Shown: in pieces, positions 47,890 through 52,447 of the stretch | How positions within the stretch are numbered: position 1 is the first letter of the stretch | How the letters are laid out: each line of letters begins with the position of its first letter | Origin: Alphaproteobacteria bacterium | GTDB lineage: Bacteria > Pseudomonadota > Alphaproteobacteria > Caulobacterales > Parvularculaceae | Direction: 5' to 3' | Assembly (NCBI GenBank): GCA_016125455.1 | Contig: WGLS01000012.1 | Location: forward strand, 62,001 to 126,000 | Length of the DNA: 64,000 bases | The notes under the pieces: generated by a model | The model's database searches: none | Seen by the model: the letters and a program-made list of their open reading frames with translations, nothing else | Told to the model about the DNA's origin: nothing | Position numbers and translations under genes: made by a program

Positions 47890-48930
47890 CTAGAACACGG
47901 ACGCGCGTTTCGCGCCGTCGCCGAGAATTGTCGGGTCTAGCGCCTGCAGCACCATCAACGCCAGTGGATCGGCCCCGCTCACGCCGTCGACGAACCGGGC
48001 AGCGTCGCTGAGGAAGATCGCAGGCCGCCGGATTGCCGCGGCGGCAGCCGCCAGATTGGACGTCGATCCAGCTGTGTGAACGGATGCCGGGCTGCGCGGG
48101 GATTGGACCTCAACTTCCCGCAAGGGCGGCCGGGCCGGCGTAGCGTGGTCGGGCGTCAAGTGGCGAGCCGCCGGCTGAACCGGCATGGCCTGAATGTGCG
48201 CCGGCTCGAGCGACGCCGACCGGAAAGACGCCACTCGGGGTCCCGCCTCGCTCGCCTTCGGCATCGCAAGCTGCGGCGCGGCTATGGTCGCCGGCGCCGC
48301 GGCGGCGCCTATTGTCGCTTCAAATCCCGCAATCACCTCGCGCACGGATTTCGCCCGCCCGTTGTCGAAGAAGATCGCCTTGTTCGCTTTCGCGGCGGCG
48401 GGGGCAATCGACGCCGCCGACGTCTCTGGCTTCGCTGAAAGGAGCTTCGCGGCGCCACTGGCCCCGAGGAAATGGGCGGCGTAAAGCTCCGCGCCCGACA
48501 CATCACGCCCGAGCTTTCGTTCAAGGATGGACTTGTTCTGCAGGGTCATTTCCGCCGCCAGCTTTGCCGCGGCGTCCGGGTCGCGGCGCAGGTCCAGTAT
48601 CGCCGCCTTTCGGGCCGGATCGGCGACGCGATAGCCGCCCGACGACGTGCGAGAGATCGCCGCCGCCGCATCGCCAAGGCCGTGCGCCTCGCCATAGGTC
48701 TTCACCGCGGCCAGCCAGGTCTGCTCGATGAACTGGAACAATCCGGTCGCGCTCGACGTCTTCGCCTTTGCTTCCGGGTTAAGGCTGCTTTCGCGCGTCG
48801 CCACGTCATAGAGATAGGCGAAGTCGACGCCGGTGGCGTCCGCGGCGGACTTCAGCGCCGTGCGCACGCCGCCGGCGCTTTTCGTCGTGGCGGCAAGGTT
48901 CGCGCCAATGACGTCGCTGAAGTGGGCCAT
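47890..48930 (-). CDS. SLT-domain lytic transglycosylase-like protein
   Basis: 346 residues from ATG 48928-48930 (MAHFSDVIGANLA). The N-terminal 1-170 is a lysozyme-like SLT domain: DFAYLYDVATRESSLNPEAK has the catalytic Glu, and TSSATGLFQFIEQTWL is the conserved Gly-Leu-x-Gln motif. No signal peptide is visible. The remaining half is Ala/Pro-rich and low in complexity, ending LALMVLQALDPTILGDGAKR. Similar proteins occur widely in Alphaproteobacteria; lack of a signal leaves its location open. Confidence 0.75.
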   Translation of the reverse strand: MAHFSDVIGANLAATTKSAGGVRTALKSAADATGVDFAYLYDVATRESSLNPEAKAKTSSATGLFQFIEQTWLAAVKTYGEAHGLGDAAAAISRTSSGGYRVADPARKAAILDLRRDPDAAAKLAAEMTLQNKSILERKLGRDVSGAELYAAHFLGASGAAKLLSAKPETSAASIAPAAAKANKAIFFDNGRAKSVREVIAGFEATIGAAAAPATIAAPQLAMPKASEAGPRVASFRSASLEPAHIQAMPVQPAARHLTPDHATPARPPLREVEVQSPRSPASVHTAGSTSNLAAAAAAIRRPAIFLSDAARFVDGVSGADPLALMVLQALDPTILGDGAKRASVF

Positions 48931-49009: not shown

Positions 49010-50197
49010 CTAACGCGCCGCGCTTGATGGCGCTGAAGGGAGCGCGAGCTTGCGGGCGGGCGTCGCGAACCGGTCCGGCAGGAACGGCTTTGGCCATTCA
49101 GGTGAATTGGCGGTTGCGCAGGCCCGGATAATCTCCGCGGTCGCCGGCGCGAGAAGAATCCCGTTTCGATAGTGCCCGATCGCGTAGATGACACGAGGGT
49201 CGCCTGCCGCCGGTCCGATGATCGGCGCGCCGTCCGGCGCGACGGGCCTGAGGCCCGCCCAGCGCGAGGACTCGTTCGCGCGCTCGAACGCCGGCACGAT
49301 CCGCGTCGCAGCCGCCCGTAGCCCGTCGACGCGTTCGTCGTCGGTTTCGAGGCTTGCATCTCCCGGACGTTCCGTCGCGCCAATGACCACGCGGCCGTCC
49401 TGGCGCGGACATATATAGGCGTTGCGTCCGCGGATAACCCGGCGCGGCACTGCGGCTCCTGGGGCGAACGCCAACGCTTCGCCTTTCACCGGCGTCACGA
49501 TTGACGCGTTGCCGGAAAGACGCCGCGCAAATGCTCCGGCGCCAGTTGAAACGATTGCGCGATCCGCCGAGATAGCGCCGCCGCTCGCGAGCCGCATTCG
49601 AACGCCGCTGCCGTCAGGACCATTTTCGAAAACGCTGGCAATTGCGTGGACGATCTGAACGCCGGCGCGCCGCACGGCGGTTTCCAGCGCCTCAACAAGC
49701 AACACGGGATCAACCTGCGCCTCCTCTCGCGCGAGGAGGCCCGCAATGACGCCCTCGGCGAGGAGCGGCTCCAGCGCGCGCGCGGCGCGCCCGTCAAGCA
49801 GTTCCGCCCCAACGCCGGCCGCCGCCATCAGCTCCGCCTGGCGCGTCAACGCGTCCGCCTCGGCGTCAGTGGTCGCGACGCCAAGGATGCCGTCATCGCG
49901 AAAATCGATCGACTGGCCCGATGCGGCTTCGAGTTCGGGCGCAAAGCCGGCCCACATCCGAAGGGACGCAAGCGACAGATCCGCGAGCGCCGGCGAGGAC
50001 GCGGCGACCGCATGGCGTTCAGCGCGCTCGAACGAGGGCGCAAGCATGCCGGCGGCCGCCTTCGTCGCCCGCGGCGAGGCCGACCGTCCGTCAACGACGA
50101 TGACGCCGACGCCAGCAAGCGCGAGGCGCCACGCCGCGGCGAGGCCGATTGCGCCGCCGCCGACTATCACGATGTCCGTGACGATATCCGTCCGCAT
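49010..50197 (-). CDS. thiO: Glycine oxidase ThiO (FAD)
   Basis: Oxidises glycine to iminoacetate for thiazole formation by ThiG. 395 residues. The ATG 50195-50197 lies six bases after AAAGG; the GTG two codons earlier touches that site. DAO fold: DIVIVGGGAIGLAAAWRLAL (FAD), ATKAAAGMLAPSFERAER, VTPVKGEALAF, AYICPRQDGRVVIGATE, RWAGLRPVAPDGAPIIG and YAIGHYRNGILLAPATAE. It is about 11 kb away from thiS-thiG here. Substrate could be another amino acid; context does not decide. Confidence 0.88.
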   Translation of the reverse strand: MRTDIVTDIVIVGGGAIGLAAAWRLALAGVGVIVVDGRSASPRATKAAAGMLAPSFERAERHAVAASSPALADLSLASLRMWAGFAPELEAASGQSIDFRDDGILGVATTDAEADALTRQAELMAAAGVGAELLDGRAARALEPLLAEGVIAGLLAREEAQVDPVLLVEALETAVRRAGVQIVHAIASVFENGPDGSGVRMRLASGGAISADRAIVSTGAGAFARRLSGNASIVTPVKGEALAFAPGAAVPRRVIRGRNAYICPRQDGRVVIGATERPGDASLETDDERVDGLRAAATRIVPAFERANESSRWAGLRPVAPDGAPIIGPAAGDPRVIYAIGHYRNGILLAPATAEIIRACATANSPEWPKPFLPDRFATPARKLALPSAPSSAAR

Positions 50198-50216
50198 ACT
50201 CACCTTTCGCGCCAGC

Positions 50217-50795
50217 CTACCTGCGCGGCTTTGCAGGTTGCGCGCCCTGCCCGCTAAGGCCGTCGCCAGGCGACAGCAGCCGCGTCTTTTCCCGCGAGCC
50301 GGCGGACGAGCCGAAAAAATAATTGACGACCGCCGCCGTCATGGTCGCGAGGGCGCCGAGCATGATAGAAAACTCGGTTTCCGCGCCCGCCGGCAGGCGA
50401 CGGGTCACCATCGCCGCCAACACAATGAAAAATCCCGCGATGATCAATCCGCCAAGGACGGACGGCGTCAAATCGTCCATCTTCGCCTGGCGGGCGCGCG
50501 CGTCCGCGCGATCGCCAGCCGCGATCCGCAGGTCTTCAAGGCGAGCGTCCTCAAGGGCCCTGCGAAACGCAAGGTCGGCGACCTTCAACCGTAGCAAGGT
50601 GTCGGCGTCCGCGGTCCGGAGGGCGTCCGCCAGCGCGGCTTCGTCAGCGCCATCTTCGCCAAAAATCGCCCGCGAGAGGGCGCCGACCGCCGCGCCGGCC
50701 AGGGGCCCGCCAAGCGCATGGGCGATCTGCGGGGCGACGTCCGCCACCGCCCGCTTTAATCGGCCCCGCGGCCGCTTGGCATCTTCGTCCGACAT
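50217..50795 (-). CDS. Gene-transfer-agent type three-TM holin (GTA_holin_3TM family)
   Basis: 192 residues from ATG 50793-50795 with GGAG upstream. The mid-part (LLRLKVADLAFRRALEDARL, AAGDRADARARQAKMDDLTP) and the membrane part (VLGGLIIAGFFIVLAAMV, FSIMLGALATMTAAVVNYFFGSSAGSREKTRLL, shown in parts: NYFFGSSAGS) match the holin family that releases the Rhodobacter gene transfer agent. Two to three TM segments. No capsid, terminase, tail or endolysin genes lie beside it, so it is an isolated phage-like lysis gene with ordinary base composition. The stop is 19 bases before the thiO start. Confidence 0.75.
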   Translation of the reverse strand: MSDEDAKRPRGRLKRAVADVAPQIAHALGGPLAGAAVGALSRAIFGEDGADEAALADALRTADADTLLRLKVADLAFRRALEDARLEDLRIAAGDRADARARQAKMDDLTPSVLGGLIIAGFFIVLAAMVTRRLPAGAETEFSIMLGALATMTAAVVNYFFGSSAGSREKTRLLSPGDGLSGQGAQPAKPRR

Positions 50796-51196
50796 CAGGT
50801 CTTCTCCGTTGGCATCCATCTGCGGCCATCCATCTGCGCAATTCACGCGATTATGGGGCCGCCGAAATCGTGTTCGATGGACGACCTCGAAATTCCTCTG
50901 CAGCCCGCGCCAGCGCTGGCGTTGAGGCGTTCGATAGATTTTTTTTCAACAAGGATTTTTTGCCGGCCAGGCGCGTCATGGCGTCGAATGCTGATCGACG
51001 AATGCGTTGCGCGGCAGCGACAGCATTACCAAAACTTCGCAATCCGGACGAAAAGAACGTCCTTGCGCAGATTCACGGATCAATTCAGCTTGCTACGCTC
51101 ACGAATCGGTTGCGCGCGACGTCGCGTACGCAACCGTCCGGCGACGGCGTTCACCCGGACGGAGGCGATTCCCGAACAACCGTCGAGGTCCGAGAC
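50796..51196. promoter_or_regulatory. Divergent intergenic region with 14-base palindrome and T-run
   Basis: About 400 bases between the holin-like gene and the antiporter-like gene. It contains a perfect palindrome CGCCAGCGCTGGCG (50908-50921) and an AT-rich patch with eight T (50939-50946). An open frame crosses it but would encode a non-membrane, biased sequence, so I treat the region as non-coding. The palindrome may be an operator for either gene. Confidence 0.35.
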
Positions 51197-52447
51197 TTGA
51201 CCGCTGTCATTGAGTCCATCGCATTCGTTATCGCGCTCATCGCGACCGTCGCCGCTCTTGGCCATGCAATTGGCCGTCGGCCGGCTGCCGCCCCGGCGCT
51301 TGTCCTTGGCGTCGGCCTTTTGGTGGCGCTCGGCGCGCTGGCGATTGGCCTTGCGGCGCCGGCCGCGAACATCGCCGCTGGCCCCGCGAAATGGGGGCTT
51401 GCCGCCCTTGGCTTCACTGCGGCGACCCAGTTCCGGGTGCGGCTGCTGTCGCGGCTGCGCGCGCCGGCGTTCCGTCTCGCCACCGCCGGCGCGCCGCTCG
51501 CCTTCGCCTTCTGGGCGCTAACGGCGTTCGTCATGCTGCCGCAGACGTCGATGGCGACAGCGGGCCTCATCGCCGCCGCTCTCCTCCTCAATGGCGCCGC
51601 GTTTGACCGCAAGGCGGTGCTCGGCGCGCCGGCGCCCGCCGTCGTCAAACAGACCGTGCGCCTCGAAGGCGCGGCGATTACCGCATTCGGCCTGCCGATC
51701 GCCGCCTTCTGCATCGGCGCCGCGACCGCCGCGGGCCCGTCGGAACCACAACTGACGCCGCTTCTCCTGACGACGATCTCGATGCTGAAGGGTTTCGTGT
51801 TCGGCGGGCTGCTTGGTTTCGCAGCGGCGCGGATCGGACGTCGGCTCTACCGCGCTGCGGGCGGCCGCGCAGCGCCGGCCGAACGCCGAATCGATGCGAT
51901 GGGCGGACCGGCGGTGATGGCCGGTTTTGGCGCTGCGCTGCTGGCGCCCGTGATCGGCGGCGACATGCTGATCGCCGCTGTCGCAGCAGGGCTCGTCTGG
52001 AGCGAGGAAGCCGGTCGTGCGCCAGGCGTGCGCCGCGTCCTGCAACGCCTCAGCGAGCGCGCCATTCCGCCAGCAGCCTATTTCGCCTTCGGGTTCCTGA
52101 TGCTGCCGCGGCTTGCCGACGCGGACATGCTGACAACCCTCTACGCCGTCGCCGCAGTAACCATTCTGCGCGCTGCGCCGAGGCTTGCGGCGCTGTCGTC
52201 GGCGAAACTGCCCGAGGGGGCGCGGAACTTCATTGCCTGGTACGGCGGCGCCCCCGGCGCGGGCTCCGCGCTGTTCCTCATGATGCTGACGGGCGAGCCG
52301 GCGATCGCCAATCTCGATCCCGCCCTCACGGTCGGCTCCATGTGCGTCGCCTGCGGCGTTATCGGCGCGCGCGCTTCGTCGAAACCCCTGCTGGACGGAT
52401 TCCTGCAGGCCGCTGCGCGCGGGCGCTCACGGCGGGCTTACGCCTGA
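51197..52447 (+). CDS. CPA1-antiporter-like membrane protein with altered core motifs
   Basis: 416 residues from TTG 51197, eight bases after GAGG (51185-51188); this puts a TM helix at the N-terminus (VIESIAFVIALIATVAALG). About 11-12 TM helices with the CPA topology. Where CPA1 antiporters read TDPVAV and later LEGESLLND, this protein reads FDRKAV and RLEGAAITAFG, so the Asn-Asp/Asp-Asp transport site (here Ala163-Phe164) and the TDP loop are changed. It may be a transporter of different mechanism or a non-transporting relative. Function unknown. Confidence 0.6.
   Translation: MTAVIESIAFVIALIATVAALGHAIGRRPAAAPALVLGVGLLVALGALAIGLAAPAANIAAGPAKWGLAALGFTAATQFRVRLLSRLRAPAFRLATAGAPLAFAFWALTAFVMLPQTSMATAGLIAAALLLNGAAFDRKAVLGAPAPAVVKQTVRLEGAAITAFGLPIAAFCIGAATAAGPSEPQLTPLLLTTISMLKGFVFGGLLGFAAARIGRRLYRAAGGRAAPAERRIDAMGGPAVMAGFGAALLAPVIGGDMLIAAVAAGLVWSEEAGRAPGVRRVLQRLSERAIPPAAYFAFGFLMLPRLADADMLTTLYAVAAVTILRAAPRLAALSSAKLPEGARNFIAWYGGAPGAGSALFLMMLTGEPAIANLDPALTVGSMCVACGVIGARASSKPLLDGFLQAAARGRSRRAYA

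Follow-up and report, generated by a model that had tools for sequence, protein, structure and literature searches.

A probable domesticated phage holin upstream of thiO in Parvularculaceae and its possible use in gene transfer agent release

We analysed a window of 64,000 nucleotides, meaning the whole stretch of DNA presented here, which belongs to a Parvularculaceae genome of 3.6 Mb in 37 contigs (G000), and focused on the 192-amino-acid protein encoded at 50217-50795 on the minus strand, for which we use the label H. The gene is followed 13 nt downstream by a thiO-like FAD oxidoreductase gene (49010-50203, minus strand; PF01266), with which it is likely co-transcribed, and the third gene of the run encodes an SLT lytic transglycosylase-like protein (47890-48930, minus strand; PF01464). 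On the other side lies a divergent antiporter-like gene (Na_H_Exchanger, 50870-52447, plus strand; PF00999), which we regard as a neighbour only. This flank is conserved in genomes that lack H, and since the listed antiporter reading frame starts inside the upstream region of H, the actual start codon probably lies deeper within that frame. The initial annotation had placed H between thiO and an antiporter-like gene with no phage gene nearby, and both statements were borne out, as the expected Pfam domains were found in the neighbours and none of the seven neighbouring genes tested by Pfam was a phage gene. Likewise, no endolysin gene was found beside H at this locus, where the neighbours are thiO, SLT and the antiporter. 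We also observed a conserved element, TTGATCCG, followed in many genomes by CAAATTGAATTTT, upstream of H at about 51070-51095 of the window; it is probably part of the antiporter side of the region, because it persists in two genomes without H (G011 and G033).

H consists of a basic N-terminus, a helical region that includes a 43-residue helix (residues 64-106), two transmembrane (TM) helices and a basic C-terminal tail. The AlphaFold model (mean pLDDT 83.6) comprises short N-terminal helices, the 43-residue helix and the two TM helices, and it agrees with hydropathy on two clear TM segments at about residues 110-131 and 139-161. Both approaches further revealed a weakly hydrophobic stretch at residues ~27-45. 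Three TM segments had been counted at first; two of them are clear, and the third, which corresponds to the weakly hydrophobic stretch, was not confirmed. Searches of the PDB by sequence and by fold returned no match to H. H is a single-copy gene in the window's genome, and its pairwise dN/dS ranged from 0.07 to 0.34 in the 25 closest pairs, which, together with the presence of relatives across the family, indicates that this ORF is a genuine gene rather than a product of chance. H is therefore real and under purifying selection, and its strongest conservation was found in the TM hairpin and in the motifs common to phage copies.

We then compared H with known protein families. In PHROGs, H matched phrog_1544 (E = 8e-17, residues 13-174 of 192), a family that carries no function name there, and the viral copies of H matched phrog_1544 too. 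The initial annotation had assigned H to the GTA (gene transfer agent) holin family, and this assignment did not hold. A Pfam search of H (E ≤ 1) detected no GTA_holin_3TM (PF11351) and nothing above the cut-off, while the window's genome gave 0 matches to PF11351 in a search that was also silent in control genomes and positive in 4 of 61 relatives. Alignment of the H family profile by hhalign to four aligned PF11351 proteins from relatives, that is, to a profile built from four members only, yielded a probability of 0.4%. On the basis of these three results, membership of H in PF11351 was rejected. H resembles GTA_holin_3TM in being a small holin-like membrane protein, and its best fold match among viral models bears that kind of name ('Holin of 3TMs, for gene-transfer release'; E = 2.4e-5, 26% identity, TM 0.35); it differs in the missing sequence match to the Pfam model and in the low hhalign probability. 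The match between predicted folds may explain why H reads like a GTA holin.

Relatives of H were encoded in at least 582 viral stretches of IMG/VR (582 of the 600 listed), and the best 80 of these at least 582 relatives shared 39-45% identity with H over ~160 residues. In 61 of the 80 best loci, the H relative is followed by an endolysin gene that begins no more than 900 nt away (50 GH108, PF05838 with PG_binding_3; 11 muramidase, PF11860), which is the order of a holin-endolysin cassette and marks phrog_1544 as a putative holin family by gene order. GH108 is also the family to which we take the RcGTA endolysin to belong. Two of the 80 loci have less than 300 nt of downstream sequence, and among the other 17, six contain a GH108 match ~1 kb upstream, three contain a downstream ORF that on visual inspection resembles a GH19 lysozyme, and about eight showed no endolysin. 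A further viral scan, with a phage relative of H as the query, identified 76 loci, and GenBank phages yielded three weak C-terminal matches only, one of them annotated as a holin and one adjoining a lysozyme gene. When 33 bacterial and 17 viral copies were placed in one tree, the bacterial sequences formed one clade apart from the viral ones (support 100/99), which is consistent with one capture and subsequent vertical descent. The phage proteins are homologous to H over residues 17-178, nearly its full length, and have the LGGPLAG, DR..AR and LGAL motifs in common with it. In contrast, the next gene is usually an endolysin gene in phages and thiO for H, and the N-terminus of the bacterial copies is longer and basic (median 20 aa and net charge +5, versus 14 aa and 0 in viral copies). 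Kinship and the gene order of the viral relatives thus bear out the earlier suggestion that H is phage-derived, and these sequence comparisons make it very probable that H is a domesticated phage holin.

Of 37 Parvularculaceae genomes, 28 carried H (51-79% identity), and a profile search of a larger set detected it in 47 of 62, a count that includes a decayed copy (G021) and two copies interrupted by gaps or by the end of a contig (G064 and G067). The reading frame is open in almost all copies; a candidate pseudogene in G064 was rejected, as its apparent frame break is a run of N. No copy was found in 24 genomes of four sister families, and the 42 H loci recovered from GTDB contigs were all titled Parvularculaceae, its genera or unnamed Alphaproteobacteria. 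Among the genomes searched, H is limited to Parvularculaceae. The thiO gene was found in 37 of the 40 H loci examined, always downstream on the same strand and mostly 20-70 nt away. The SLT protein had been described as lacking a signal peptide, as an endolysin would, and a hydrophobic N-terminus is indeed missing (best 19-residue mean 0.61 by hydropathy). However, its distribution is independent of H, as SLT is present in 15 of the 24 sister-family genomes without H, has no match in 10 of the 28 genomes carrying H and is kept where H was lost; its role as the endolysin partner of H was rejected on these grounds.

Turning to the GTA itself, the window's genome was found to contain a complete RcGTA-like cluster on contig C20 (about 754.9-768.7 kb), with H located on contig C16. 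The lack of a structural cluster had been named among the findings that would refute the GTA reading, and this refutation fails: the structural genes sought elsewhere in the genome are present as a full set, comprising by Pfam the terminase, portal, prohead protease, capsid, connector, tail tube, DUF2460, gp84/BR0599, NlpC/P60 and GTA_TIM genes, and no holin or endolysin was recognised among the cluster genes tested. RcGTA-like clusters are known in Parvularculales, according to PMC11409702, and PMC6854486 gives a predicted small terminase of P. bermudensis at 1595455-1595796 of CP002156. The terminase match at 1595792 in G022 abuts this gene, so G022 is probably that species.

Across the 62 genomes, H and GTA_TIM occurred together in 41, H alone in 6, GTA_TIM alone in 7 and neither in 8 (Fisher's test, P = 0.0027; this and the following tests ignore kinship and rest on few events). 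The corresponding counts in genomes at least 95% complete were 27, 3, 3 and 4 (P = 0.015, or P = 0.053 without genus g7, which falls inside the family with poor support in a terminase tree where the row of G006 is in the wrong frame and its long branch meaningless). In 37 genomes in which GTA intactness was scored by hand from terminase and GTA_TIM, after the data had been seen, intact H was found in 23 of 26 with an intact GTA versus 4 of 11 with a broken or missing one (P = 0.0026), and without g7 in 23 of 24 versus 4 of 7 (P = 0.028). Three genomes were particularly informative. G011 and G033, which are 99-100% complete and belong to the genus that includes Marinicaulis flavus, have no terminase or GTA_TIM match and retain the acyl-CoA dehydrogenase, antiporter, thiO and SLT genes in order, with H alone gone and no remnant left; the two losses may be one event. 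G021 (100% complete), also without terminase and GTA_TIM, encodes an H whose N-terminus is replaced and in which G29, D95, A99 and R100, invariant in all 50 aligned bacterial and viral copies, are lost. A GTA lysis gene would be expected to disappear or decay in genomes without a GTA, as H did in these three members of the Marinicaulis group.

Exceptions were found in both directions. H is intact in G034 (Parvularcula oceani) and G083 (P. dongshanensis), with a dN/dS of ~0.33, and the GTA of these genomes is reduced to a terminase-gp15 fusion; G007 also has such a fusion, yet its H is intact. Intact H without a match to GTA_TIM, the gene scored, was likewise seen in G081 and G070. Conversely, a GTA is present and H absent in G024 and G028, and GTA_TIM was detected in 20 of the 24 sister-family genomes, none of which has H. 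G027 also has a GTA and no detected H; the SLT match there is at the edge of a contig, and H could be hidden in the gap.

The collapsed clusters showed a structure of their own, in which a single frame joins the ATPase part of the terminase to the C-terminal part of gp15 (G034, L186 895-3312, 805 aa; G083, L185 7365-9767, 800 aa; G007, L189, minus strand, 1013 aa). The gp15 junction in G007 differs from that in G034 and G083, so the fusion arose at least twice, and the G034/G083 pair has a dN of 0.29 and a dS of 0.83, as if kept by selection. Damage to the GTA cluster was also frequent in the genus that lacks H: the terminase of G008 is in two overlapping pieces (L191 4279-5527), GTA_TIM is absent from G015 and G032, and G020 has neither GTA gene. 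G024 and G028 of this genus pass both the terminase and the GTA_TIM tests.

We further examined the upstream region of H and found a promoter-type box, A[CGT][CGT]TATCGAAC, at 50929-50939 on the minus strand, ~130 nt upstream of the H start codon; the same box occurs twice upstream of the GTA cluster. A motif, AAACTTATCCCC, was derived unsupervised from 24 GTA upstream regions, after two of the 26 (G006 and G010) had been dropped as coding or fragmentary. Scores of 10 bits or more were obtained with it for 24 of the 41 regions upstream of H and for 1 of 153 controls, and in a comparison with shuffled sequences 18 of 26 regions upstream of H scored higher (P ≤ 0.05). The box is greatly over-represented in G000 (44 sites, and 1 for the reversed control pattern), G001 and G002 have 24 and 17 sites, with a control count of 4 in each, and it precedes many housekeeping genes, which we take from their Pfam hits to be prkA, queA, OTCase, gidA/mnmG, Mur ligase, HD phosphohydrolase and ccmF genes. 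In view of these numerous sites, we no longer read the shared box as a sign of GTA-specific control of H. The promoters of H and the GTA share one class that is common to housekeeping genes, and the box is a promoter class of the window's genus. In G000 the box is often paired, 57 or 77 bp apart, and a dispersed repeat of ~270 bp with a box pair is located at many contig ends (C2, C7, C8, C10, C11, C16, C20, C31 and C34; L227, L230, L237 and L246-L251), where it probably broke the assembly. A different arrangement was observed in G019 and G027, whose GTA promoter regions upstream of the terminase (L079 and L073) carry TTATCC-type boxes of 12 bp, six in tandem; in G019, H is also preceded by two boxes of this type at a spacing of 12 bp. 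A binding element for GafY has been described in C. crescentus (PMC11150451).

We propose that H is a phage holin of phrog_1544 that would have been captured once by an ancestor of the Parvularculaceae, parted from its endolysin and retained as a chromosomal gene before thiO. Like its phage counterparts, H would accumulate in the inner membrane and permeabilise it at a defined time, and its likeliest use would be the lysis of the few cells that produce RcGTA-like particles, leading to particle release; degradation of the wall would fall to an enzyme from another locus or, after membrane opening, to lytic transglycosylases of the host. The lytic activity of H, its timing, its GTA use and its wall enzyme are what we infer. 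Use in GTA release, the likeliest job for H, has close to an even chance of being correct, and the whole explanation, from captured phage holin to present-day lysis of GTA-producing cells, is advanced tentatively, at somewhat under an even chance. GTA use is favoured because H was lost within the Marinicaulis group, because the cluster is present and because no other release gene is known there, and it is held back by the exceptions, namely H in GTA-dead genomes and GTA without H. The initial annotation had read H as a possible unlinked GTA lysis gene, and this reading stands in part: the GTA cluster elsewhere in the genome and the three losses or decay speak for it, whereas neither the kinship to PF11351 nor the SLT partner was upheld.

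H might instead be a domesticated holin with a job unrelated to the GTA, such as controlled death or membrane opening, confined to a few cells, that releases DNA, enzymes or vesicles. Such a job would fit the intact and apparently selected H where the GTA has collapsed (G034, G083 and G007), the general class of its promoter box and the sister families that have a GTA without H, but it leaves unexplained why H was lost or decayed in three GTA-less genomes that kept its operon neighbours, and why H and GTA are associated in counts; we consider it a credible, though doubtful, alternative. The position of H directly before thiO in 37 of 37 loci with thiO found, the longer basic N-terminus of the bacterial copies and the lack of an adjoining endolysin might also suggest that H has lost its lytic function and now serves the thiO operon as a housekeeping membrane protein, for example an anchor or scaffold. 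This is unlikely, given that thiO survives without H in G011 and G033, and that the TM hairpin and phage-common motifs are the most conserved parts of H, which indicates that membrane activity is selected. Finally, the phage kinship of H and its loss in some lineages would be compatible with a fading, useless prophage remnant, a reading to which we give hardly any credence: it is already contradicted by purifying selection at the dN/dS values given above, as well as by a frame open in almost all copies and a position fixed across the family.

If H does lyse GTA-producing cells, then GTA release in Parvularculaceae would depend on a lone holin of a non-PF11351 family, recruited from a phage after the GTA was in place and acting without an adjoining endolysin, a wider proposal that we regard as possible and rather doubtful. 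GTA exit has so far been ascribed to a holin and endolysin in Rhodobacter and to LypABC in Caulobacter; were the proposal true, Alphaproteobacteria would have arrived at three or more separate solutions to GTA release (RcGTA holin-endolysin, LypABC and H). Because some species of the family are in culture and H is the one conserved candidate, deleting this gene alone would suffice to test how the GTA is released, and if H serves another purpose, it would exemplify neatly how selection can preserve a lethal phage protein in bacteria. The open-access literature searched contained no mention of a GTA holin in Parvularculales. What is new in H is an unlinked holin of another family, in a GTA-bearing bacterium, without an adjacent endolysin, and in the order of C. 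crescentus, a model species that lyses through LypABC (C. crescentus and Parvularculaceae both presumably belonging to the GTDB order Caulobacterales). In R. capsulatus, rcc00555 is the endolysin and rcc00556 the holin, according to PMC3423380 and PMC8601537. H resembles this pair by gene location, being a holin of a GTA-bearing alphaproteobacterium that is encoded at a distance from the head-tail cluster, and differs from it in having no adjoining endolysin. For C. crescentus, PMC13236601 and PMC9632790 report no holin-endolysin homologues and describe lysis via LypABC, with an unknown final effector. LypABC would share with H the status of a host locus for GTA release that is unlinked to the GTA, but, as described in PMC13236601, it is a CARD-NLR-like complex and not a holin.
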